Source: Methanoculleus taiwanensis
GTDB lineage: Archaea; Halobacteriota; Methanomicrobia; Methanomicrobiales; Methanoculleaceae
Reading direction: 5' to 3'
Length of the DNA: 64,000 nucleotides
Assembly (NCBI RefSeq): GCF_004102725.1
Contig: NZ_LHQS01000001.1
Span: 725,327-789,326, forward strand
The notes beneath the pieces were generated by a model. It saw only the letters and a list, made by a program, of their open reading frames with translations, was not told the origin of the DNA and did no database searches. Positions 5,189 through 61,834 of the stretch are shown here, piece after piece. Both the position numbers and the translations under genes were made by a program. Within the stretch, counting starts at the first letter, position 1. Every line of letters starts with the position of its first letter.

Positions 5189-5659
5189 ATGAAGAACGTT
5201 GCCGTCGTTGATGTACTCGATCAGAAGGTCGCAGGCCTCCGCCGAAACGGACGCTACGAAGAGATCGGTTCGGTGCTCATGGAACTTTACCGGTTCGTCT
5301 CGGAGAAGGGTCTTCTGATCACCGGCCCGCCAGCGTTCATCTGTCACGAGCAGACGCACGAGGAGGTCAGAGAGGCCGACAGCGCCGGAACCGCCGATAT
5401 CGAGGTGGTCTTCCCGGTAGAAGGAGACGCGGCAGGCGAGAGCGGGATTGGAGTCTACGAACTTGCCGGCGGAACGATGGCCAGGATCATCCATATGGGT
5501 GCGTACCGGGACTGTGGAGAGGCTTACGAGGAGCTCTTTGCCTGGATAGCGGCAAATCACAAAACCATCGCCGGTCCCCTCCGTGAGGTCTACGTCAACA
5601 ACCCCGCCGAGACGCCGGAGGACGACCTCGTCACCTGGATCTACGCGCCGATTGCGTGA
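5189..5659 (+). CDS. GyrI-like/AraC effector-binding domain protein
   Basis: 156 residues forming a stand-alone GyrI-like (SOUL/AraC effector-binding) small-molecule binding domain. Diagnostic segments are the N-terminal QKVAGLRRNGRYEEIG strand-helix, DIEVVFPVE, the GGTMARIIHMGAY strand pair and the final ...EDDLVTWIYAPIA. Such proteins bind hydrophobic or cationic ligands, and some act as hydrolases or multidrug sensors. No DNA-binding domain is fused, so it is not itself a regulator. ATG at 5189. It sits alone, 73 nt after the kinase on the same strand. Confidence 0.85.
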   Translation: MKNVAVVDVLDQKVAGLRRNGRYEEIGSVLMELYRFVSEKGLLITGPPAFICHEQTHEEVREADSAGTADIEVVFPVEGDAAGESGIGVYELAGGTMARIIHMGAYRDCGEAYEELFAWIAANHKTIAGPLREVYVNNPAETPEDDLVTWIYAPIA

Positions 5660-5793
5660 TTGAACAGATCTCCCCTCTTTTCAATACATACTGTGCCGCG
5701 ACCACCGGCGTTCATCCCTTCTCGCACAACGCTTAAGTGCCTTGACCGGCAGTGCTGTCGTGGGTTCTGTCAGCCCCGGGGACGGGGATTGTT

Positions 5794-7122
5794 ATGATTC
5801 TGGATGACATGCTGTACGATATTGCTTCGATTGGCCTGTACAACCTCTGGAAGGCCACGCACCAGGTGCGTAAAACGGTGAGGAGTACGGGCATGGCCGT
5901 CGAGGAGATCACCGGCGGTATCGGGGATCGGGCGGCTGATGCTGAAACGGCGTTTTCGAGCGCCGTTCATAACCTCCTGTCGTTCATCAGCGAGCTTGAG
6001 GATCTCGTGGCGGTCAGGGACGGGAGCTTCCGCGGTGAGGACGAGCTCCTGGATGTGGATGTGCGGCGGCTCTCCGCACTGCGGGTAAAGGAGAGGGAGC
6101 TCTTAGAAGAGCTCGCCCGGTACGGAGAGGGCGAACCGCCGGCGCCGGAGGAGAAGGCTCTGGCCGAGAGCAAACTCGCGATAGTGCGAAATGCCATACA
6201 CGGGATACTCGACGCTGCAGAACCGGGCGTCATCCCTACCGGTCTGTATGACGCGAGAGCCGTCCTTGAACGGTTCAACACGCTTGAGCAGCCGGAGATC
6301 GAGGAGATCTTCGCGGCGACGCTCGGGAACCTCGCGGGCTTTGAATCTGTTCTTGGCGAGGTCGAGAAGCTCTTCGTTGTCAGGAGGGATACGGTGGTAG
6401 ACCCCGCGGGGCTGTCGAAGGAGAAACAGGACGAGCTTGCACGGCTGCAGTCCTCGCTCATCCTCTACGACCGGCTGATCGAGAAGACGACACGGGCGAC
6501 GATCCGGCTCCAGGAAGAGCTTCTCCGCGCGTATCCCGAAGAGGCCGTGGTGAGAACTCCCGTCCCGCCGGGCACCCGTGAGCGGGGAGCGTCCGCTGTC
6601 CGGGCCGGTTCGGAAACTCCGCATCCTGTTCTGCCGGGAGAGCAGCATCCCGCCCCCGGACTCCGGCCGCCGAAGAGCGTCCGCATCGCCCGGGTGATGG
6701 GACGCACCGATATTACTGCCGTGCTTGCAAACCTTGCTGCAATGCAGGGTATCAACCGGTACTACGAGCGGGAGCGGCTCAAGGTGGAGAGGAAGATCGC
6801 CCGGCTGCTGTCGGCACCGGTGGACGAACCGGGAGTTCTGCCCCGCTCGCTCGATGAGATGCGCCTTACGATCGAGCGGTTCCGGGTCAGCGGGCAGCCC
6901 CGGCTCGAGATGCTGGTCGATACCCTGACCGAGGTGATCACCGAATCGAGAACGGCGGCGGCGAATACAAACCGGACTTTCGAGGTTGCGTGCCGGTTCG
7001 CGGACGGCCTGTCCAGAAACCGCCTCCTGCTCGTGATCGGGTTCGGGGTCTTCGCGGCGCTGTTGCTCGCGAGCCTGGTGGTTCTCCTGATCATTCTGGT
7101 CGAGATCGCGCTTATCCTCTAG
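5794..7122 (+). CDS. Unrecognised tail-anchored helical protein with an internal repeat
   Basis: 442 residues from ATG 5794 (GGGGAT just upstream); an in-frame GTG at 5752 would add 14 residues. I do not recognise a family. The protein is mostly charged helix, with a proline/glycine-rich linker at about 250-295 and one strong C-terminal membrane helix (about 409-442). That makes it a likely tail-anchored protein with a cytoplasmic bulk. Two segments look duplicated. EPGVIPTGL...LERF...QPEIEEI...TL at about 143-177 matches EPGVLPRSL...IERF...QPRLEML...TL at about 345-378. Both follow a charged helix ending in a similar LLSA/ILDA turn. A scaffold or membrane-remodelling role is only a guess. 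Confidence 0.75.
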   Translation: MILDDMLYDIASIGLYNLWKATHQVRKTVRSTGMAVEEITGGIGDRAADAETAFSSAVHNLLSFISELEDLVAVRDGSFRGEDELLDVDVRRLSALRVKERELLEELARYGEGEPPAPEEKALAESKLAIVRNAIHGILDAAEPGVIPTGLYDARAVLERFNTLEQPEIEEIFAATLGNLAGFESVLGEVEKLFVVRRDTVVDPAGLSKEKQDELARLQSSLILYDRLIEKTTRATIRLQEELLRAYPEEAVVRTPVPPGTRERGASAVRAGSETPHPVLPGEQHPAPGLRPPKSVRIARVMGRTDITAVLANLAAMQGINRYYERERLKVERKIARLLSAPVDEPGVLPRSLDEMRLTIERFRVSGQPRLEMLVDTLTEVITESRTAAANTNRTFEVACRFADGLSRNRLLLVIGFGVFAALLLASLVVLLIILVEIALIL

Positions 7123-7191
7123 TAGGGCTGGCGCATGCGGCTCCGGGGCAGGCATCGCCGGACCGGCTCTCCGGTCGTTTCCGCTGCGCGA

Positions 7192-8160
7192 TCAGGACCT
7201 GGTGTCCGCATGCTCTCCCGACTCTTTTCTGAATACGTCGTATGCTGCGGGATACTTCTCCCGGGCGGCAGCGCGTATCTTCTCAAGCCTCTCTTCGAGA
7301 GTGACGTACGCTTCCCCGTGAGCGACTGTATCGATGCGTTTCTGCAGTAACTCCTTCATCTGCAGATTTTTCTCGAACCCGAAGTAGTGGCGCCAGATGC
7401 TTTTGGCGACGACGGCAGTGGTTCCCATGCCCATGAACGGATCGAAGACCAGGTCGCCTGGCCGGGAACTGAACTCGATACATCGCTTCACGACCTCTAC
7501 GGGCAGCGTCGTGGCATTCTTTGCTTCTCCGACGGTGTACTTGCGTTTGATATCCCAGACGTCCTCGGGATACGGCTCCATCTTATTGAAGTAGTATTGG
7601 TAGGGGTCTTTGACGAGCAGGATGACGTGGTAGTGGCTGGTGACGTATTTTCTTCTCGTAAAGACGCCGAACTGGTATCGCCAGATGATGTGGTTGATGG
7701 TGGTTAGATCGCTCTCTCTGGCGCCACGCAGAACGTCCTCGAGGTGGTTCCACCCGCTGAAGACATACGCGGAGGCGTGGGGTTTCATGATCCGCTGCAC
7801 CTCGCCCATCCACGCTTCAGTGAATGCAGCGTAGTCCTGATCGACCTCGTGGTAAGCATCCACTACATGGTCGCTGTTTCTATTATATGCAGACGCTTTG
7901 CCGGAGAACTCGATTCCGAACGGGGGATCGGCAACAACGAGATCGACGGAAGAGGACGGCATCCGCTCCATGCCCCTGATGCAGTCCTCGAAGAGAATGG
8001 TGTCATGATCGACCGGATGGCACGACGCCTCTTCGTAGCGTCTCCGTGCCTCATCCGGTGTCCAGTAATCGTCCGGTGAAAATCTTATCGATGCAAGACC
8101 GGGGATGTATCTCTTCTTTCCGCTCCCCTTTCTGTTGCCCCCGCTCGTTACACCTGCCAC
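7192..8160 (-). CDS. Solitary DNA methyltransferase (N4-cytosine/N6-adenine, beta class)
   Basis: 322 residues. The catalytic motif IV is DPPFGIEFSG (about residues 80-90). The SAM-binding motif I, FDPFMGMGTTAVVAK, comes later (about 236-250). Motif IV before motif I is the beta-class order. The target-recognition region lies between them. It modifies an exocyclic amino group in a specific DNA site. No restriction endonuclease gene is adjacent, so it looks like an orphan methyltransferase with a regulatory or protective role. The N-terminus is basic (GGNRKGSGKKR). Start is GTG at 8160; a TATA-like AAATTATTTA at about 8186-8195 suggests a nearly leaderless mRNA. Confidence 0.88.
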   Translation of the reverse strand: MAGVTSGGNRKGSGKKRYIPGLASIRFSPDDYWTPDEARRRYEEASCHPVDHDTILFEDCIRGMERMPSSSVDLVVADPPFGIEFSGKASAYNRNSDHVVDAYHEVDQDYAAFTEAWMGEVQRIMKPHASAYVFSGWNHLEDVLRGARESDLTTINHIIWRYQFGVFTRRKYVTSHYHVILLVKDPYQYYFNKMEPYPEDVWDIKRKYTVGEAKNATTLPVEVVKRCIEFSSRPGDLVFDPFMGMGTTAVVAKSIWRHYFGFEKNLQMKELLQKRIDTVAHGEAYVTLEERLEKIRAAAREKYPAAYDVFRKESGEHADTRS

Positions 8161-8472
8161 AGTCCCTATTTCATTCCGGTCAGCTAAATAATTTGTGATT
8201 TCAAAGATTGTTTTCTCTGACCTGCATCGCTACGCCGGAAGAGTATCAGGACGGCCCCGACGCCCGAATACTGCTCACGGATTACATCCCGGGAGGGCAC
8301 TGTTCTGCGAGCATCTCCTCAAACCGGACTAATCAGGCCTCACCGCTCATTTTCATGGTTGCAGTCGGCTCTTTTGCAGGTTTGAGCGCATTTCGGGTTT
8401 GCACGAGAATAGTGACACATTTCACTACTTTTATGCATCCGGGGGTGTACGTGCTATGAGGAGAAGATTATT
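8161..8472. other. Divergent promoter region between methyltransferase and rsgA
   Basis: 312 bases without a convincing gene; the frame at 8208-8459 has no ribosome binding site or family resemblance. It holds TATA-like AAATTATTTA (minus strand, 8186-8195) for the methyltransferase. On the plus strand ACTTTTATG (8426-8434) and a GAGGAGA ribosome binding site (8458-8464) serve rsgA. Confidence 0.5.
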
Positions 8473-9567
8473 ATGACTCCCGATGCCGCACAATTCAGTT
8501 CATCGCGCGAGTTCACGCTCGAGACCCTGGGGTGGGATGAGTCGCTTGCTTCTGCGTTTGAACGCTATCGGGATTCGTATACCCCGGGAAGGGTCTCAAG
8601 CCGGCATCGCACCACCTTTGCTATTATAACCGAGTCCGGATCCATGCAGGCCGGTATTTCCGGAGCACTCCGCCGTGTCGGCCGGATACCGGCAGTCGGG
8701 GATTTTGTCGTCCTGCACAGGCAGCCCGATACCGGAACCTCTATGATCGTGGATATTCTCCCGCGAAAGACGCTTTTTACCCGCGGTGTCCCCGGTAGAG
8801 ACGGGGATGACCAGGTGGTGGCTGCAAACATCGACACTGTCTTTATCGTGACCGCGGCCGGCGCCGACCTGAACCGCCACAGGCTCGAACGGTACCTGAC
8901 CCTCGTCCATGCATCGGGTGCAGAACCAGTGATCCTCATCAACAAGGCGGATCTTGCCATAGATCCCTCGACGCTCACGTCGGAGATTGCGCCCGTCGCC
9001 ACCGGAGTGCCGGTTATCACGCTCAGTGCCGTAACCGGATATGGCCTCTCGGCGCTCGATCCGTTTCTCCTGCCCGGCAGAACGGTTGCTCTTATCGGGT
9101 CGTCCGGGGTCGGGAAATCCACGTTGATCAATACTCTGCTGCAACGGACTGTGCAGGATACCGGCCGGGTGCGGGAGTCCGATGGGAAAGGTCGTCACAC
9201 AACCTCTGTTCGCCAGATGTTCATTCTCGAGAACGGCGCGCTGGTCATCGATAATCCGGGACTGCGCGAGGTCGGGATCGGCACCGCCGGTTCCGGCATG
9301 AACGACACGTTCCCGGAGATTCGGGAGCTGGCAGCCGGATGCCGGTTTTCGGACTGCCGGCACGAACATGAGCCGGGTTGTGCGGTCCGCGAAGCGGTCG
9401 CGGAGGGCCTTCTCTCACAGGATCGTCTTGAGAGTTATCTCATGCTCGCAAAAGAGCTCGAGTTTCAACAGGAAAAAGCCGAGATCGGGCTCGCCCGATC
9501 GGAGCGGAAACGGTGGAAAGAGATCAGCAAGGTGGCACGGGATATTCGCGGTACGAAAGAGCGATAG
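8473..9567 (+). CDS. rsgA: Ribosome small-subunit-dependent GTPase RsgA
   Basis: 364 residues with the circularly permuted G-motif order typical of RsgA/YjeQ. G4 is NKAD (157-160), then G1 GSSGVGKST (209-217), the switch-I-like GKGRHTT (238-244) and G3 DNPG (260-263). An N-terminal OB-fold region (about 40-105) precedes the GTPase. The C-terminal zinc site is Cys290, Cys295, His297 and Cys303. In bacteria RsgA checks late 30S maturation. A bacterial-type 30S GTPase in an archaeon suggests ancient transfer. ATG at 8473 with GAGGAGA 8 nt upstream. Transcribed alone. Confidence 0.92.
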   Translation: MTPDAAQFSSSREFTLETLGWDESLASAFERYRDSYTPGRVSSRHRTTFAIITESGSMQAGISGALRRVGRIPAVGDFVVLHRQPDTGTSMIVDILPRKTLFTRGVPGRDGDDQVVAANIDTVFIVTAAGADLNRHRLERYLTLVHASGAEPVILINKADLAIDPSTLTSEIAPVATGVPVITLSAVTGYGLSALDPFLLPGRTVALIGSSGVGKSTLINTLLQRTVQDTGRVRESDGKGRHTTSVRQMFILENGALVIDNPGLREVGIGTAGSGMNDTFPEIRELAAGCRFSDCRHEHEPGCAVREAVAEGLLSQDRLESYLMLAKELEFQQEKAEIGLARSERKRWKEISKVARDIRGTKER

Positions 9568-53057: not shown

Positions 53058-53627
53058 ATGGACGATCAGGTTTACCAGCCCGAAGCCGATACCTTCCTGC
53101 TGCTCAGGGCGGCAGAGAGGGAGGTCCGGCCGCACGACCGGGTGCTCGAGGTCGGCACCGGCAGCGGACGGGTCGCTGCCGGGCTTACGAAGGCTGCGGA
53201 CAGCGTCGTTGCAACCGATATCAACCCCTACGCCGTGCTCGCCGCCCGTTCGTGCGGTGTCGAGACGGTGCGGTGCGATCTTGCCGCCGGTCTTGCCGGA
53301 CCGTTCGATCTCATCGTCTTCAACCCGCCCTACCTGCCGACGTCGCCGGAGGAGCGGATCGACGACTGGCTTGAGTATGCCCTCGACGGAGGACCTGACG
53401 GGAGATGGGTCATCGAGCGGTTCATCCGCGATCTCGGCCGCATCTTATCGCCGTACGGCCGGGTTCTGCTGCTTGTCTCAACGCTGACGGGTCTGGATGC
53501 GGTGCGCGAGATCTTCGCCGCCCACGGGTTCGTATCGTTCATCGTCGACGAGGAACCCCTTGAGGGGGAGAGGCTATACGTGCTCCGGGCAACGCGGGAC
53601 TTCTGCCGGATCAACGCAACCGGTTGA
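53058..53627 (+). CDS. HemK2/Mtq2-type protein methyltransferase
   Basis: 189 residues from ATG 53058 (ATG 53049 would add three residues; GAAGGG lies 10 nt before 53058). Motifs: YQPEADTFLLL (family start), VLEVGTGSGRVAAGL, ATDINPYAV and the catalytic LIVFNPPYLPT. Relatives methylate the Gln of the GGQ motif in release factor aRF1/eRF1, consistent with its place at the end of a translation operon. The 3' end overlaps the convergent gene by 17 nt. Confidence 0.92.
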   Translation: MDDQVYQPEADTFLLLRAAEREVRPHDRVLEVGTGSGRVAAGLTKAADSVVATDINPYAVLAARSCGVETVRCDLAAGLAGPFDLIVFNPPYLPTSPEERIDDWLEYALDGGPDGRWVIERFIRDLGRILSPYGRVLLLVSTLTGLDAVREIFAAHGFVSFIVDEEPLEGERLYVLRATRDFCRINATG

Positions 53628-54252
53628 TCAGGCTCAGGACGGCGATGAGCGTCGGCGTGCTCTTCTGTACCGAGCTACGAATTTTCATCCATTCATCCCG
53701 GTTCTCCGCCGTCATGCATTCGTAAAAGACGCAGTAGGCAAAGAATCCGTGGATCTTGTATGCCGGGAGCGGGTCGCTTCCGGGTTTGGTCATCTCTCTT
53801 TCGAAGGTATGCCCGGGCTCGCATACTATTCTGTCCCAGTCTGCAATTATGCCGGCGATATCCGGGTGTTTCAGGGAGAGTTCAAAGAAGAGGGGAGACT
53901 GGCGCAGCAGATCGGAGACCTCGCTCCGGAGTTCGTCGCCGGTGACGAAAAGGCGCTTTTGGGCGATGGTATCGACCACCCGCGGCGCCTTTATGAGCTC
54001 TGTTCTGAGATTCGGATACGCGAGCCATAACCGGGAGAAGATCCCGGGATCGGACGGTATCCGATATATGCAGGGATCGGGAGCCTCTGCGGTATCAAAG
54101 GCAAGGGCTCCCTGGCGTACGAGGGCGGTGAGTCTCTCTCCGATCCGCTCATCGTCGGTGGAACCGGTTCGGCAGGCTGCAATCAGTTCCGCCTCCGGGA
54201 GTTCGTCGCTCCGTAGCAGGTGCCGAAAAATGTTCTCCGTGATCTCTGCCAT
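53611..54252 (-). CDS. Hypothetical protein (Methanomicrobiales-type), unrecognised
   Basis: 213 residues, soluble. The first 60 or so residues (NIFRHLLRSDELPEAELIAA ... LTALVRQGALAF) could form a winged-helix-like unit. The rest is mainly helical (LWLAYPNLRTELIKAPRVVD; FFELSLKHPDIAGIIADW). No catalytic pattern is apparent. Start ATG 54252 has a GAGGAGC ribosome binding site and a minus-strand TATA-like CATATACG (about 54276-54283). Monocistronic. Confidence 0.78.
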   Translation of the reverse strand: MAEITENIFRHLLRSDELPEAELIAACRTGSTDDERIGERLTALVRQGALAFDTAEAPDPCIYRIPSDPGIFSRLWLAYPNLRTELIKAPRVVDTIAQKRLFVTGDELRSEVSDLLRQSPLFFELSLKHPDIAGIIADWDRIVCEPGHTFEREMTKPGSDPLPAYKIHGFFAYCVFYECMTAENRDEWMKIRSSVQKSTPTLIAVLSLINRLR

Positions 54253-54654: not shown

Positions 54655-57600
54655 GTGAGTGAATCGAGAATGCGGGAACGCCGCGCACTCTGCGGCATCT
54701 GCTCTGCAGGCTGCGGCGTCATCGTTACCTACGACGACGAAGGAAAGATAGCCGGTGTCCGGGCGGATGAAGACTCGGAGATCGGGATCATCTGCAAACT
54801 GGGCGAGCGTACGCCGGAGATCGTCTACTCGAAAGACCGGGTAATCCATCCACTGAAGCGGGTGGGTCCGAAGGGAACCTACGCGTTCGAACGGATCTCC
54901 TGGGACGAGGCATACGCGATCATTGTGGAAAACCTCACCCGGATCAAGGATGAGCACGGGCCTGAGGCAGCGGCGATCTACACAGGCTCAGGCAGTTTCG
55001 AACTCTCGCACTGCGATGTCTTCCAGCCGAAAGACGTAGCGGTCTCCTCTGCATCGAGCGTCCTCTTCCCGTATGGCTCCCCGAACACCATGGGGGTCGG
55101 TGCCCTCTGCTATGTTGCATTTGCCATGATAGCGCCCCACGTCACCATGGGACGGCTCCACATCAACACCTACTCCGATTTCGAGAACGCCGATCTCATC
55201 GTGGTCTGGGGCACGAATCCCGCCACCGATTTCCCGCCGCTGAACCTCCGGAAGATCCTGGCCGCGAAAAGCCGGGGTGCCGAGGTCGTCGTCATCGATC
55301 CCCGGCGGACGAAGACGGTCGATCTCGCCGGTGCCGAGTGGGTTCCCATTCGTCCGGGCACCGACGGTGCTCTCGCTCTCGGGCTCTGCAATGTCTTGAT
55401 CGCGGAGGAACTCTACGACGAGGAGTTCGTCAAAAACTGGACGCATGGTTTTGCGGAGTTTTCCACGTACGTCCAGCATTTCCGGCCGGAGGTCGTGGAA
55501 GAGATAACCGGCATCCCTGCAGAGACCGTTCTCTCGCTCGCCCGGCGGATAGCTGCGGCGGACGGCGCGACGTGGGCGATGTACACCGGGCTTGAGTACA
55601 GCGACTCCGGTGTGCAGGCGATCCGGGCGGCCATCGTCCTCTGGGCGCTCGCCGGTCAGATGGATGTTCCCGGCGGCCGCTGCTTCTCGATGCTCGAGAA
55701 TACTTTCCCTATCAACCGCTCGGAGTACCTGGAAAATCCGGATCTGAACCGGGCGATAGGGGTCGATCGGTTCCCGGTCTATACGGCGTACCGGCAGGAG
55801 GCTCACCCGATCGCCCTCCCCGAGTCCGTCCTGCACGGGAGACCCTACAAGGTACGAGCCCTGATCATCCAGGCCGGGCATCTCCTGATCTCCTGGCCAC
55901 AGACGCCGCTCTGGCGCGAGACACTCGAGAACCTCGAGTTCCTCGTCTGCGTCGACCGCACCCTCACCGCCGATGCGGCGTACGCCGATATCGTGCTCCC
56001 GGCAACGACGATGTACGAACGTGAGTCGTACATGACCTACGGCCCTCTCTTCCGGATCCGAGAAAAGGTCATCGAGCCCCTCGGCGAGGCGCGGCACGAC
56101 GTCTTCATCATGGCGGAACTCGCGAAGCATCTCGGGTACGGCCATCTCTATCCGCAGGACGAGGAGGCGATGCTCCGGCACGTTCTGAAGGGTTCGGGGT
56201 TCAGCCTCGAGGCTGTCAGGGCTGCCGGGGGGACGGTGCAGTCGCCGACGGTGATGATGCAGTACAAAAAGTGGGAGAAAGGACTTCTTCGCCCCGACGG
56301 AAAGCCCGGGTTCGATACCCCGACGGGCAAGTTCGAGATATGGTCGACGATCCTCGAGGAATCCGGGTACGATCCGCTTCCGGTCTATACGGAACCGCAG
56401 GAGAGCCCGGTCTCAAGGCCAGATGTTGCGGAGACGTATCCGCTAATCTTCAACTCCGGCGCCCGGGTGACGACCGACTTTCATGCACAGCACCACGGGG
56501 TCGAAAGCCTGATCCGGGAGCGTCCCGAGCCGACAGTGACCATTCATTCCCGTGACGCGGAGGAGCGCGGGATCAGGAACGGCGATCGGGTCACCGTCCG
56601 AACGCTGCGGGGGCAGATCCCGCTCCGGGCGATCGTCACCGACGATATCGTCCGGGGTGCTATAGAGGCGAATATGGGTGGCGGGTGCCACATCGGGCCG
56701 AAGGCCTGGCAGGAGGGGAACGTCAACGAACTGACCGATATGCAGCGCTACGATCCTATATCCGGTTTTCCGGTCTATAAAGTCCTCCTCTGCGATGTAA
56801 CGCGGGCGGATACCTCCGGCGGGGAGACGGTCGCCATCGGTTCGGGCGAGCTTGGGGCTCCTCGGGATCTGCCGGCGGCGGCCGCCACTTCCGAAACCGC
56901 CCGGATCTACCTTGACAACAATGCCACGACCCCGATCGATCCCGCGGTCTGGGAGACGATGGTCGCTTTTGGCGAGGCGAACTACGGGAATCCGTCGAGC
57001 ATCTACCGGGAGGGCAAGGCGGCAAAGAGGGCCGTCGAGGATGCCCGGCGCGTGCTCGCCCGGCTCCTCGGATGCACGGCAAAGCGGATCGTCTTTACCG
57101 GGTGCTGCACCGAGGCGAACAACTTCCTCATCAAGGGGCTGGCGTTCGCCTCCCGGGACGGTGAGAATAAGCATCTCATCACCTCGTCGGTCGAGCATTC
57201 GTCGGTGCTCGAGCCGATCCGGTGGCTCAGGAAGTTCGGGTTTACCGTGACCGAGCTTTCCGTCGACGCGACCGGTCGTGTCAGTCCCGCCGATCTCGCG
57301 GAGGCGATCACGGCGGAGACGCTGCTCGTCAGCATCATGACCGCGAACAACGAGACCGGTTCGATCCAGCCGATCCGGGAGCTCGCCCGGGTAGCGCACG
57401 CAAGCGGGGCGCTCTTCCACACGGACGCGACGCAGGCGATAGGAAAGATCCCGGTCAATGTCGCCGACCTGGACGTCGACTTCCTCAGTCTCTCCGCCCA
57501 CAAGATCTACGGGCCGAAGGGGGTCGGCGCCCTGTACATCCGCAAGGGGATCGAGCTCGATCCCCTCCTGCACGGGGGCGAACAGGAGCGAGGCCTGCGT

Positions 57601-58059
57601 GCCGGTACGGAGAACGTGCTCGGTATCGTCGGGCTCGGGCGGGCGGCGGAGCTTGCAGAGCAGCACCTTGCCGGGATGGAGGCGGTCAGGCTCCTCCGTG
57701 ACCGTCTTGAAGACGGGATCCGGGCGCTCGTTCCTGAAGCACGATTGAACGGGCATCCGACGGAGCGCCTCCCGAATACGGTCAATATGACGCTTCCCGG
57801 GTATCGGGGGGAGTCGGTGGTGCTCGCCCTCGATCAGCAGGGGATCTCAATCTCCTCCGGTTCGGCATGCCACTCGGGATCGCCGGCACCGTCGCACGTG
57901 CTGCGTGCGATGGGTCTCTCAGACGAGGAGGTTCACTGCTCGATCAGGATCTCTCTTGGTGCCGGAACGACCGAAGAGGAGGTTGAGAGGACGCTTGCGG
58001 TTCTGGACGATACGCTCCATAACCGGAAGGCGACCGTCCGGTTCGTAACCTGCCGTTAG
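54655..58059 (+). CDS. Putative metallopterin-dependent ergothioneine synthase: molybdopterin oxidoreductase-cysteine desulfurase fusion
   Basis: 1134 residues in one uninterrupted frame. Residues 1 to about 725 are a DMSO-reductase-superfamily Mo/W-bisMGD enzyme. The [4Fe-4S] cysteines are C13, C16, C20 and C47. The cofactor-ligand region is YGSPNTMGVGALC, with C152 as likely metal ligand, as in the polysulfide/thiosulfate reductase branch. WGTNPATDFPP and MGGGCHIGPK mark the pterin-binding domains. After a short Ala-rich linker, about 745-1134 is a complete class V PLP cysteine desulfurase: YLDNNATTP, HTDATQAIGK, SAHKIYGPKG (PLP lysine K950) and SSGSACHSG (persulfide C1072). There is no Tat signal or membrane anchor, so it is cytoplasmic. 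The next gene is an EgtD homologue. The likely job is to move sulfur from cysteine to C2 of hercynine's imidazole without oxygen. An alternative is self-sulfuration of the metal cofactor. GTG start; GGAGG 8 nt upstream. Confidence 0.85.
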   Translation: MSESRMRERRALCGICSAGCGVIVTYDDEGKIAGVRADEDSEIGIICKLGERTPEIVYSKDRVIHPLKRVGPKGTYAFERISWDEAYAIIVENLTRIKDEHGPEAAAIYTGSGSFELSHCDVFQPKDVAVSSASSVLFPYGSPNTMGVGALCYVAFAMIAPHVTMGRLHINTYSDFENADLIVVWGTNPATDFPPLNLRKILAAKSRGAEVVVIDPRRTKTVDLAGAEWVPIRPGTDGALALGLCNVLIAEELYDEEFVKNWTHGFAEFSTYVQHFRPEVVEEITGIPAETVLSLARRIAAADGATWAMYTGLEYSDSGVQAIRAAIVLWALAGQMDVPGGRCFSMLENTFPINRSEYLENPDLNRAIGVDRFPVYTAYRQEAHPIALPESVLHGRPYKVRALIIQAGHLLISWPQTPLWRETLENLEFLVCVDRTLTADAAYADIVLPATTMYERESYMTYGPLFRIREKVIEPLGEARHDVFIMAELAKHLGYGHLYPQDEEAMLRHVLKGSGFSLEAVRAAGGTVQSPTVMMQYKKWEKGLLRPDGKPGFDTPTGKFEIWSTILEESGYDPLPVYTEPQESPVSRPDVAETYPLIFNSGARVTTDFHAQHHGVESLIRERPEPTVTIHSRDAEERGIRNGDRVTVRTLRGQIPLRAIVTDDIVRGAIEANMGGGCHIGPKAWQEGNVNELTDMQRYDPISGFPVYKVLLCDVTRADTSGGETVAIGSGELGAPRDLPAAAATSETARIYLDNNATTPIDPAVWETMVAFGEANYGNPSSIYREGKAAKRAVEDARRVLARLLGCTAKRIVFTGCCTEANNFLIKGLAFASRDGENKHLITSSVEHSSVLEPIRWLRKFGFTVTELSVDATGRVSPADLAEAITAETLLVSIMTANNETGSIQPIRELARVAHASGALFHTDATQAIGKIPVNVADLDVDFLSLSAHKIYGPKGVGALYIRKGIELDPLLHGGEQERGLRAGTENVLGIVGLGRAAELAEQHLAGMEAVRLLRDRLEDGIRALVPEARLNGHPTERLPNTVNMTLPGYRGESVVLALDQQGISISSGSACHSGSPAPSHVLRAMGLSDEEVHCSIRISLGAGTTEEEVERTLAVLDDTLHNRKATVRFVTCR

Positions 58060-58194: not shown

Positions 58195-58338
58195 CATCGG
58201 GGGCATCAAGTCGGTTCCATGACGTATTCTGACTGGGCACGTGAAGATCTGCAGGTGGAGAGAACGGCGGATTGTTCGTCCGGGTCACCATCATACGGGC
58301 GGCGCAGTCGCCTGAACCCCGCAGCCGGTTTGCTCTGT

Positions 58339-58428: not shown

Positions 58429-59421
58429 ATGCAGACCGGCGGTGGGGAGTCGAGGCTTGAGATCCGGAACTATCTTACGAGTTCGTATGCCGAGGAGATA
58501 GCCCGTGACGTCCGTCTTGGCCTATCCGGGGGTCAAAAAAGGATCCCGAGCAAGTATTTCTACGACGAGCGGGGTTCGCGGCTCTTTGAAGAGATCTGTA
58601 TGCTCCCCGAGTACTATCCCACCCGGACCGAGATGGCCATCCTGCAGGAGTATGCCGGGGCGATCATGGAGCCGTTTGCCGGCGGCGATCTCGTGGAGAT
58701 GGGGTCGGGAGCGAACTGGAAGATCTGCCGCCTGCTCGATGCGGCATGGCAGGCGGACAGTCGCGTCATACGCTACGTACCGGTCGATGTGAGCGAGGCC
58801 GCTCTTCGAACGGCCGCTGTGGATCTGCTCCGGCGGTATGACGGGCTCTCCGTCCTCGGGATCGTCGCGGACTTCACCCGCGACCTCGGTAGTATACCGG
58901 ATAATACCTCAAAGATCGTCAGCCTCTTCGGCGGTACGCTCGGGAATTTCACCGGGCCGGAGGCCGAGTCCCTGCTTGGAATGGTCGCCGGGCTCATGCA
59001 CCCGGGTGACCGGTTCCTTCTCGGCCTCGATATGCTGAAGGAGAGAGCGGTTCTCGAGGCGGCATACAACGACTCCCGGGGAGTCACCGCCGCGTTTAAC
59101 CGCAACATCTTACACGTTGTCAACCGGGAACTCAACGCCGGCTTCGATCCTTTGCTCTTCGATCACGTCGCGTTCTTTAACGAAGATGCGGAGCAGATCG
59201 AGATGCACCTCGCTGCAAAGCAGGCGATGACCGTCGATATCGGGCTCCTCGATATGGCGGTGGAGTTCCGGGAGGGTGAGACGATTCATACCGAGATATC
59301 CCGCAAGTTTTCCCGGGAGAGTGCAATGAGGCTCTTCGAACGGGCAGGCCTTGCGGCCGAACGCTGGTTCACCGACGATGCCGGGTGGTTCTCGCTCGTT
59401 GAGCTCGCCCGGAACGACTGA
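58429..59421 (+). CDS. egtD: L-histidine N-alpha-methyltransferase (EgtD family)
   Basis: 330 residues from ATG 58429, matching the usual family length of about 320. The frame is open to ATG 58219 (400 residues), but the extra part has lower third-position GC and no family pattern. Family hallmarks: YDERGSRLFEEICMLPEYYP, the SAM site VEMGSGANWK, SLFGGTLGNF, AAYNDSRGVTAAFNRNIL and TEISRKFS. By comparison with mycobacterial EgtD, the TEIS Glu and Ser (59293-59301) and the AAYND Tyr correspond to histidine-binding residues. It would trimethylate histidine to hercynine. It follows the Mo-desulfurase fusion by 159 nt (369 nt to this start) on the same strand. Confidence 0.85.
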   Translation: MQTGGGESRLEIRNYLTSSYAEEIARDVRLGLSGGQKRIPSKYFYDERGSRLFEEICMLPEYYPTRTEMAILQEYAGAIMEPFAGGDLVEMGSGANWKICRLLDAAWQADSRVIRYVPVDVSEAALRTAAVDLLRRYDGLSVLGIVADFTRDLGSIPDNTSKIVSLFGGTLGNFTGPEAESLLGMVAGLMHPGDRFLLGLDMLKERAVLEAAYNDSRGVTAAFNRNILHVVNRELNAGFDPLLFDHVAFFNEDAEQIEMHLAAKQAMTVDIGLLDMAVEFREGETIHTEISRKFSRESAMRLFERAGLAAERWFTDDAGWFSLVELARND

Positions 59422-60056: not shown

Positions 60057-60941
60057 ATGCGATCCCGCTTACTGGTCATAGTACTGGTTGTTTTACTGAT
60101 TGCAAATGTATACTCCGCGGTCATCGTTCCCGCCGCGGTCGATGGGGATCTCCGTGACCTCAATAGCCGGATTGCCGTCCTTGAAGAAGAGAATGCCGAT
60201 CTGCTGGCCAGGGTTTCCGAGTATGCCTCCCAGGCGGTGGCTCCTGCCGCTGAGCCGACCCCGTATCTCCCGCCGGCAGCGGAATCCCTCACCGGGGCAG
60301 CGACGCTTCAGGCGCCGGTGGTCGTCGAGAAGGTCGAGTCCGTCAGGAACTATCCGCTCGTGCGGCAGCGGGTAACGGAGAAGGGATCGCTCGTGGACGT
60401 CTCGGTCGAGGTCGTCCCCGGACGCGGACGGGTGCTCGTCCAGACCACGCCGCTGATGGGGGTGGTTTTCCAGGATGCCGGCAACACAGCTGTCTCCGTC
60501 GCCTGTGAAGAGGCCGGAGTGAATCTCTCCGGGAGCGACGTGATCTTCTCGGTTATGGCGGAGAGCGAGGTCTCGGCGATCGACGGGCCGAGTGCCGGCG
60601 CACTGATGACGGCGCTCCTCCTCTCGGTGCTCGAGAAACGGCCCGTGAACGACTCCGTCACCCTGACCGGCACCATCGATCCGTTCGGGAACGTCGGTGA
60701 GATAAGCGGCGTCGCCGAGAAGGCGCAGGCAGCGCATGATGCCGGCAAAGATCTCATCCTTCTTCCCCGGAAGAACAACCGGGTCGTGTCCTACGGCGAC
60801 GTGACGAGGAGCATCGGCGGGGTGGAGTTCACGCTGCAACACCCGGAGGATATCGACGCCCGGCAGTATATCGAGAATGAGATCGGCATCCGGGTCGAGT
60901 ACGTGGACTCCATCCGGGATGTCATGCGGTATATTGCCTGA
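60057..60941 (+). CDS. Membrane-anchored Lon-type (S16) serine protease, copy 1
   Basis: 294 residues. One N-terminal membrane helix (about 4-27), a short coiled-coil with DLNSRIAVLEEENADLLARV (about 32-51) and a Pro/Ala-rich linker lead to the Lon proteolytic domain (about 110-294). The Ser nucleophile is in DGPSAGALM and the paired Lys in GEISGVAEKAQAA. There is no AAA+ ATPase domain, so it is not a classical LonB. The active site is probably outside the membrane. Paralogue of the next gene; see the near-identical blocks. Confidence 0.88.
   Translation: MRSRLLVIVLVVLLIANVYSAVIVPAAVDGDLRDLNSRIAVLEEENADLLARVSEYASQAVAPAAEPTPYLPPAAESLTGAATLQAPVVVEKVESVRNYPLVRQRVTEKGSLVDVSVEVVPGRGRVLVQTTPLMGVVFQDAGNTAVSVACEEAGVNLSGSDVIFSVMAESEVSAIDGPSAGALMTALLLSVLEKRPVNDSVTLTGTIDPFGNVGEISGVAEKAQAAHDAGKDLILLPRKNNRVVSYGDVTRSIGGVEFTLQHPEDIDARQYIENEIGIRVEYVDSIRDVMRYIA
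60385..60725 (+). repeat. Near-identical block shared with 61275-61620 (copy 1)
   Basis: The DNA coding the protease core repeats about 890 bp downstream with only scattered differences, including long exactly matching runs through GTGAACGACTCCGTCACCCT. The flanking N-terminal and C-terminal coding parts are much less alike. Confidence 0.8.
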
Positions 60942-60967
60942 TCGATCTGTCTGCCCCGGTGCCGCAT

Positions 60968-60979
60968 GCTTAAATATCC
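60968..60979 (+). promoter_or_regulatory. TATA box before second Lon-type protease
   Basis: GCTTAAATATCC, centred about 33 nt before ATG 61007. Confidence 0.4.
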
Positions 60980-61006
60980 GGGGTGCCCCTCCCTGTCGGA
61001 AGATCC

Positions 61007-61834
61007 ATGAAGGCTGTGTCGATCCTTGCCGCGCTCCTCCTCCTGTCGCTTCTTGCCAATGCTTACCTCGTGGCGGTCATCGTCTCACCGTCGCTGTTCC
61101 CGGCAGAGACTCCTGTGGCACCCGCTCCATCCAATCCTGCATCAGCCCCGGTTCCGGCCTCTCCTGTCCCGGGAGAGGGTCTCCCGGGAGCAGCGACGCT
61201 CCAGGCACCGGTGATTATGCAGATCGTAGAGCTCACCCGGGAAGGACCTTTTACCCGGGAGCAGGTGACGGAAGAGGGTTCGCTCGTGGACGTCTCGGTC
61301 GAGGTCGCCCCCGGACGCGGACGGGTGCTCGTCCAGACCACGCCGCTGATGGGGCTCGTCTTCCAGGATGCCGCCAATATGGCTGTCCTTGCTGCCCAGA
61401 ACCGCTCGGATGTAAACCTCTCCGGGAGCGACGTGATCTTCTCGGTTATGGCGGAGAGCGAGGTCTCGGCGATCGACGGCTCGAGTGCCGGTGCACTGAT
61501 GACGGCGCTCCTCCTCTCGGTGCTCGAAGACCGGCCCGTGAACGACTCCGTCACCCTGACCGGCACCATCGATCCGTTCGGGAACGTCGGCGAGATAAGC
61601 GGCGTCGTCGAGAAGGCACGGGCGGTACGCGAGGCCGGGAAAGATCTCTTCCTTCTCCCCCGGGAGAACAGCAGGCTCGTCCGGTATCGGAGTGTCTCGC
61701 GGAACGTCGGCGGTTTTGTGGTCACGGAGCAGCGGCCGGAGATTGTGGATGCGGAAAGGTTCATCGAGGACGAGATCGGTATCCCGGTGGAGTACGTGGA
61801 TACGATCGACGACGTTACCGCCTTCCTTTGGTAA
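61007..61834 (+). CDS. Membrane-anchored Lon-type (S16) serine protease, copy 2
   Basis: 275 residues from ATG 61007. It has the same layout as copy 1: membrane helix (about 4-28), Pro/Ala/Ser linker, then S16 domain with DGSSAGALM (Ser) and GEISGVVEKARAV (Lys). The coiled-coil segment of copy 1 is missing and the linker differs. The core is almost the same DNA, whereas both ends diverged. Own TATA box upstream. Confidence 0.88.
   Translation: MKAVSILAALLLLSLLANAYLVAVIVSPSLFPAETPVAPAPSNPASAPVPASPVPGEGLPGAATLQAPVIMQIVELTREGPFTREQVTEEGSLVDVSVEVAPGRGRVLVQTTPLMGLVFQDAANMAVLAAQNRSDVNLSGSDVIFSVMAESEVSAIDGSSAGALMTALLLSVLEDRPVNDSVTLTGTIDPFGNVGEISGVVEKARAVREAGKDLFLLPRENSRLVRYRSVSRNVGGFVVTEQRPEIVDAERFIEDEIGIPVEYVDTIDDVTAFLW
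61275..61620 (+). repeat. Near-identical block shared with 60385-60725 (copy 2)
   Basis: Second copy of the protease-core DNA. Strong similarity including silent positions implies recent duplication or gene conversion. Confidence 0.8.

Follow-up and report, generated by a model that had tools for sequence, protein, structure and literature searches.

A metallopterin-dependent ergothioneine synthase (MES) of Caldithrix abyssi, CaMES, was described by Beliaeva and Seebeck (JACS Au 2022; PMC9516567). The residues named in CaMES are C14, C17, C21 and C48 for the Fe-S cluster, C153 for the metal and K952 for PLP. C1074 and C1135 are both essential for sulfur transport, C1097 has a two-fold effect, and the transfer of sulfur takes place within one chain. 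The desulfurase activity of the C-terminal module was shown in vitro. In cells, CaMES needs K952, C1074, C1135 and C153, and an exchange of sulfur between ergothioneine and hercynine (TMH) was shown, while the attack on a metal-sulfido is a proposal of the authors that is unproven in that work. MES was reported beside EgtD in 55 genomes. In addition, E. coli supplied with Mo or W and expressing an archaeal enzyme, EaMES from Euryarchaeota archaeon ADurb.Bin009, produced 10-27 uM ergothioneine, and the authors suggest that reactions of this sort could be more widespread than is recognised. The MES fusion, its chemistry, and its presence and activity in archaea have thus been published since 2022, and none of them is new here.

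We analysed a stretch of 64,000 nucleotides of the Methanoculleus taiwanensis genome (contig NZ_LHQS01000001.1), hereafter the window. It carries a gene whose product we assign with high confidence, as a new methanogen member, to the known MES family. The features of the locus are listed below; fractions refer to a conservation set of 46 full-length homologues, window protein included.

54655..58059, + strand: mes gene, predicted metallopterin-dependent ergothioneine synthase, 1134 aa, GTG start (published family, PMC9516567)
54655..56808, + strand: N-terminal bis-MGD (Mo/W) module, residues ~1-718 (Pfam; nearest solved structure 2e7z)
54691..54795, + strand: [4Fe-4S] cysteines C13, C16, C20 and C47 (CaMES C14/C17/C21/C48), invariant, 46/46
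55108..55110, + strand: C152, equivalent of CaMES C153, predicted as the only protein ligand of Mo/W, 46/46
56791..56793, + strand: C713, end of the Mo module, candidate extra thiol, invariant in 46/46 MES
56902..58056, + strand: PLP cysteine desulfurase module at the C-terminus, residues 750-1134 (Pfam, NCBIfam)
57502..57504, + strand: K950, PLP Schiff-base lysine (CaMES K952), invariant, 46/46
57868..57870, + strand: C1072, persulfide cysteine of the desulfurase (essential in CaMES as C1074), invariant, 46/46
57937..57939, + strand: C1095 (CaMES C1097, two-fold mutational cost), 44/46
58051..58053, + strand: C1133, last residue but one, counterpart of the essential CaMES relay cysteine C1135, 46/46
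58429..59421, + strand: egtD, histidine N-alpha-methyltransferase, 330 aa if started at the ATG at 58429 (TIGR03438; frame open back to an ATG at 58219, an alternative start)

The mes frame runs from GTG to TAG over 1134 residues with no internal stop (ORF translation). Pfam detects Molybdopterin (residues 62-491, 1.2e-44), Molydop_binding (residues 601-710, 2e-21) and Aminotran_5 (residues 751-1112, 4.5e-82), confirming that one intact protein joins a bis-MGD module to a PLP desulfurase, as the first-pass annotation had claimed. The Fe4S4 domain at residues 7-59 is weak (19.9 bits vs. a cut-off of 22.7 in Pfam). With NCBIfam, the C-terminal part matches NifS/IscS and is a NifS-type desulfurase (488 bits), and the N-terminal part scores distantly to named Mo enzymes, its best match being Fdh-alpha (TIGR01591) with 300.6 bits vs. 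a cut-off of 666. Among solved structures, acetylene hydratase (2e7z) comes closest to the Mo module, in sequence (1.2e-74) as well as in a fold comparison with the predicted model (rank 1, E 1.2e-46). The AlphaFold model shows both modules recognisably, with a pLDDT below 50 at residues 111-161, around C152. The fusion is no assembly accident, as 45 further full-length homologues, spread over archaea and many bacterial phyla, are built in the same way.

We then compared the functional residues with those of CaMES, on the basis of the published CaMES numbering rather than of a direct alignment. All nine functional residues of CaMES are matched in the window protein, with an offset of -1 in the Mo module and of -2 in the desulfurase. 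The homologues used for conservation come from archaea, anammox and other planctomycetes, Nitrospirota, Thermodesulfobacteriota, Chloroflexota, Gemmatimonadota, Actinomycetota, Magnetococcales and others. They were collected with query peptides, which favours residues inside these peptides (e.g. C120); the named functional residues fall outside them. C13/C16/C20/C47, C152, K950 and C1072 had been placed correctly from the letters of the DNA, and all are invariant; the essential relay cysteine C1133 was missing from that first list. C1097 is called strictly conserved in the CaMES paper, whereas our wider set gives 44 of 46 at the equivalent C1095, which fits the small effect of its mutation. 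Moreover, C152 is followed by an invariant tyrosine (Y153), so that all 46 MES display Cys-Tyr vs. Cys-His in the host's own formate dehydrogenases.

The next gene after mes encodes an EgtD homologue, which had been noticed as a neighbour and passes the TIGR03438 cut-off (346 bits vs. 290.9, NCBIfam). It aligns end to end with the structure entries of M. smegmatis EgtD and retains the equivalents of Y39, Y56, N166, Y206, E282 and S284 of that protein. Crystal structures show histidine bound by Y56, N166, Y206 and S284 and touched by Y39 (PMC8593015); the histidine-binding residues of the neighbour are thus intact. In 36 of the 53 MES loci, an EgtD gene is located no more than about 6 kb away from MES, and a genome-wide search of the other 17 brings the number of MES genomes with EgtD to 47 out of 53, one fragment counted. 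In the remaining six, all MAGs (L011, L012, L038, L047, L051 and L052), this genome-wide search found no EgtD. The substrate may therefore not always be self-made TMH: these six may be incomplete MAGs, take up TMH, or use another substrate.

The host genome (2.75 Mb, nearly complete) contains methyl-coenzyme M reductase, which identifies the host as a methanogen, and its nearest named relative in the homologue search is Methanoculleus sp. FWC-SCC1. The presence of MoeA and of two formate dehydrogenases implies a working supply of Mo/W-pterin. A profile search of the whole host genome gave no match to the FGE-sulfatase (EgtB/OvoA) family, and the lack of an EgtB-like gene first remarked for the window thus holds genome-wide. 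Rhodaneses do occur in this genome, and EanB was considered as an alternative TMH-sulfurising enzyme and rejected. The three rhodaneses examined are ordinary tandem rhodanese or MBL-rhodanese and not EanB-like (plain rhodanese 1uar with 99 bits vs. about 53 for chains of the EanB type, with 460 residues; MBL-rhodanese 3tp9), and the remaining one is a 180-aa frame, too short for the 460-aa EanB. Our literature search found no measurement of ergothioneine in methanogens and no relevant paper joining ergothioneine with Methanoculleus.

It is very likely that the gene encodes an MES that acts with the neighbouring EgtD in an O2-free, two-gene route to ergothioneine. We infer each mechanistic step for the window protein from conservation. 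EgtD would trimethylate histidine to hercynine (TMH), as its homology and its residues suggest. The C-terminal PLP desulfurase would then convert cysteine to alanine and keep the sulfur as a persulfide on C1072, a step shown for CaMES. From there, C1133 in the C-terminal tail would receive the sulfur and hand it on to the Mo/W centre of the same chain, a relay shown by mutation to be essential in CaMES. This centre would be bound by two pterins and C152, and the arrival of sulfur would give a metal-sulfido. Finally, as the CaMES authors propose, the imidazole of TMH would attack the metal-sulfido, the C-S bond would form and ergothioneine would leave. Overall, cysteine and TMH would yield alanine and ergothioneine, a net reaction that is redox-neutral by our own bookkeeping. 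Such a reaction would do without O2 and without any external electron acceptor, which fits a methanogen, and would explain an MES without an electron-transfer subunit.

Another thiol may deserve attention. The position of C713 holds no Cys in four other bis-MGD proteins, namely two distant single-module relatives (L062 and L063) and the two formate dehydrogenases of the host, and this residue goes unmentioned in the available portion of the CaMES paper. Its membership in the sulfur route is speculation; we consider it rather unlikely that C713 would take the persulfide from C1133 before the metal as a further thiol of this route.

We built quick trees of both modules. In the Mo-module tree, all MES fall on one side and the four other bis-MGD proteins, a small outgroup, on the opposite side (support 100). 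In the desulfurase-module tree, 53 MES, window included, stand apart from 15 stand-alone archaeal desulfurases (support 99). The first-pass annotation had named, as sequence-based evidence against itself, a grouping of the Mo module with formate dehydrogenases and of the desulfurase with IscS; both modules lie apart instead. These trees weigh against a formate dehydrogenase-like enzyme whose fused desulfurase would sulfurate its own cofactor once, in maturation, as FdhD/IscS do for formate dehydrogenase. Such an enzyme would be consistent with the shared superfamily of the Mo module and with Fdh-alpha as its best NCBIfam match, a match that nevertheless remains, at 300 bits, far below 666. We hold this explanation to be extremely improbable, given the Cys-His of the host's formate dehydrogenases at the metal site, the full support separating them from MES, the linkage with EgtD that it leaves unexplained, and the ergothioneine shown to be produced by an identical architecture (PMC9516567). 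A polysulfide/thiosulfate reductase-like enzyme, fed with cysteine-derived persulfide and releasing sulfide, has practically no chance of being correct either. Polysulfide reductase 2vpw ranks second among solved relatives in sequence and is one of the best fold matches, but acetylene hydratase matches closer. Moreover, no gene for a PsrB/PsrC-like electron-transfer or membrane subunit lies beside mes, whose neighbours encode a HemK-like methyltransferase, a short opposite-strand ORF, EgtD and a flavodoxin, and the co-occurrence with EgtD also argues against such an enzyme. We reject both identities on the basis of the residue pair at the metal site, the place in the tree, the scores and the neighbouring genes.

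The protein might also be a true MES-type enzyme that forms a C-S bond on another heterocycle (e.g. another histidine betaine or imidazole). The six MES genomes in which EgtD went undetected speak for this, as does the opinion of the CaMES authors on how common such chemistry may be (PMC9516567). Here, however, egtD is the very next gene, archaeal MES form one clade and archaeal EgtD likewise, and TMH is accepted by an archaeal MES according to the same paper. We therefore consider a different substrate very unlikely and retain an MES acting on TMH made by the neighbouring EgtD.

Then, we investigated the distribution of the locus. In a survey of 40 genomes of the family, MES was detected in 7 and EgtD in 7, with both genes in 6 (Fisher P = 1.2e-5, uncorrected for kinship). 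Another species of the genus, Methanoculleus sp. FWC-SCC1 (L009), has an MES that is 84% identical to the window protein, and the gene order is shared (RpoF-like, KsgA, HemK-like, MES, EgtD, flavodoxin). In four genomes from three genera of the family (the window genome, FWC-SCC1, UBA206 and G028), the MES/EgtD locus occupies the same place, directly behind the genes for KsgA and the HemK-like protein. Archaeal MES form one clade (support 100), as do archaeal EgtD (support 97). With these unrooted trees, the distribution is most simply explained if this lineage acquired the locus long ago and then lost it repeatedly; repeated gain of MES/EgtD is an alternative history that may also hold. A recent foreign origin is rejected on composition, the GC and GC3 of MES and EgtD being in line with those of their neighbours. 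The flavodoxin was likewise dismissed as a redox partner: it adjoins the locus in FWC-SCC1 and UBA206 and is absent from the MES-bearing genomes G028, G025, G022 and G015. This adjacent gene is probably outside the MES/EgtD system.

Several other observations concern this locus and its relatives. One genome of the family, G009 (99% complete), has an EgtD 60% identical at the same place (L104, G009:C1:122000-139000, 5424-9078) and no MES genome-wide; it may make hercynine only. Between its HemK and EgtD genes lie a MATE-type (efflux) transporter and another methyltransferase, named from reading of the sequence. In the Methanomicrobiaceae archaeon UBA206, residues ~6-198 and 187-1067 of MES are in different frames (L031, 5914-9622; the same as L074), which reflects either a sequencing error in the MAG or a decaying gene. 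The anammox planctomycetes Jettenia, Kuenenia and Scalindua (L011, L014, L015 and L057) carry MES, with EgtD adjacent in three of the four; no paper linking ergothioneine and anammox was found in our literature search. In the window itself, a 213-aa ORF on the - strand (53611-54252) has no Pfam or NCBIfam match and is 42% conserved at the same place in FWC-SCC1. Further downstream (60057-61834), two similar ORFs in tandem both match one FWC-SCC1 protein (~60% identical); judged by eye, they resemble serine protease domains of the Lon type preceded by a signal-like N-terminus.

These results place a complete O2-free EgtD + MES route, as predicted, in a methanogen lineage, to which the usual view of ergothioneine as an O2-related antioxidant is not readily applicable. 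A natural comparison for the role of ergothioneine in anaerobes is offered by close relatives, which may carry the locus, lack it, or have only EgtD at that chromosomal place.

Finally, we compared the window protein with known systems. The EanB and EgtB routes lead to the same product from the same TMH precursor but employ a rhodanese or an O2-dependent iron enzyme. Acetylene hydratase 2e7z, which the Mo module matches best in both sequence and fold, also has a single Cys as metal ligand; it differs in lacking a desulfurase module, in hydrating acetylene and in its identity of only ~26%. The first-pass annotation had proposed a candidate anaerobic ergothioneine synthase in an archaeon: the MES identity is well supported, but no new class is added for archaea, as EaMES, likewise an archaeal MES, is already active. 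The Caldithrix abyssi enzyme that it cited does exist (PMC9516567), and its residue map, architecture and EgtD linkage match the window protein. The likeness to CaMES extends to domain order, Fe-S cysteines, metal cysteine, PLP lysine, relay cysteines and a co-encoded EgtD. An acetylene hydratase-like Mo module is reported for CaMES, as we find here, and the CaMES desulfurase construct ends at residue 1136, for a nearly equal length of 1134 aa in the window protein. The difference lies in the host: CaMES is bacterial, whereas the protein described here, known from its sequence, comes from a methanogenic archaeon.
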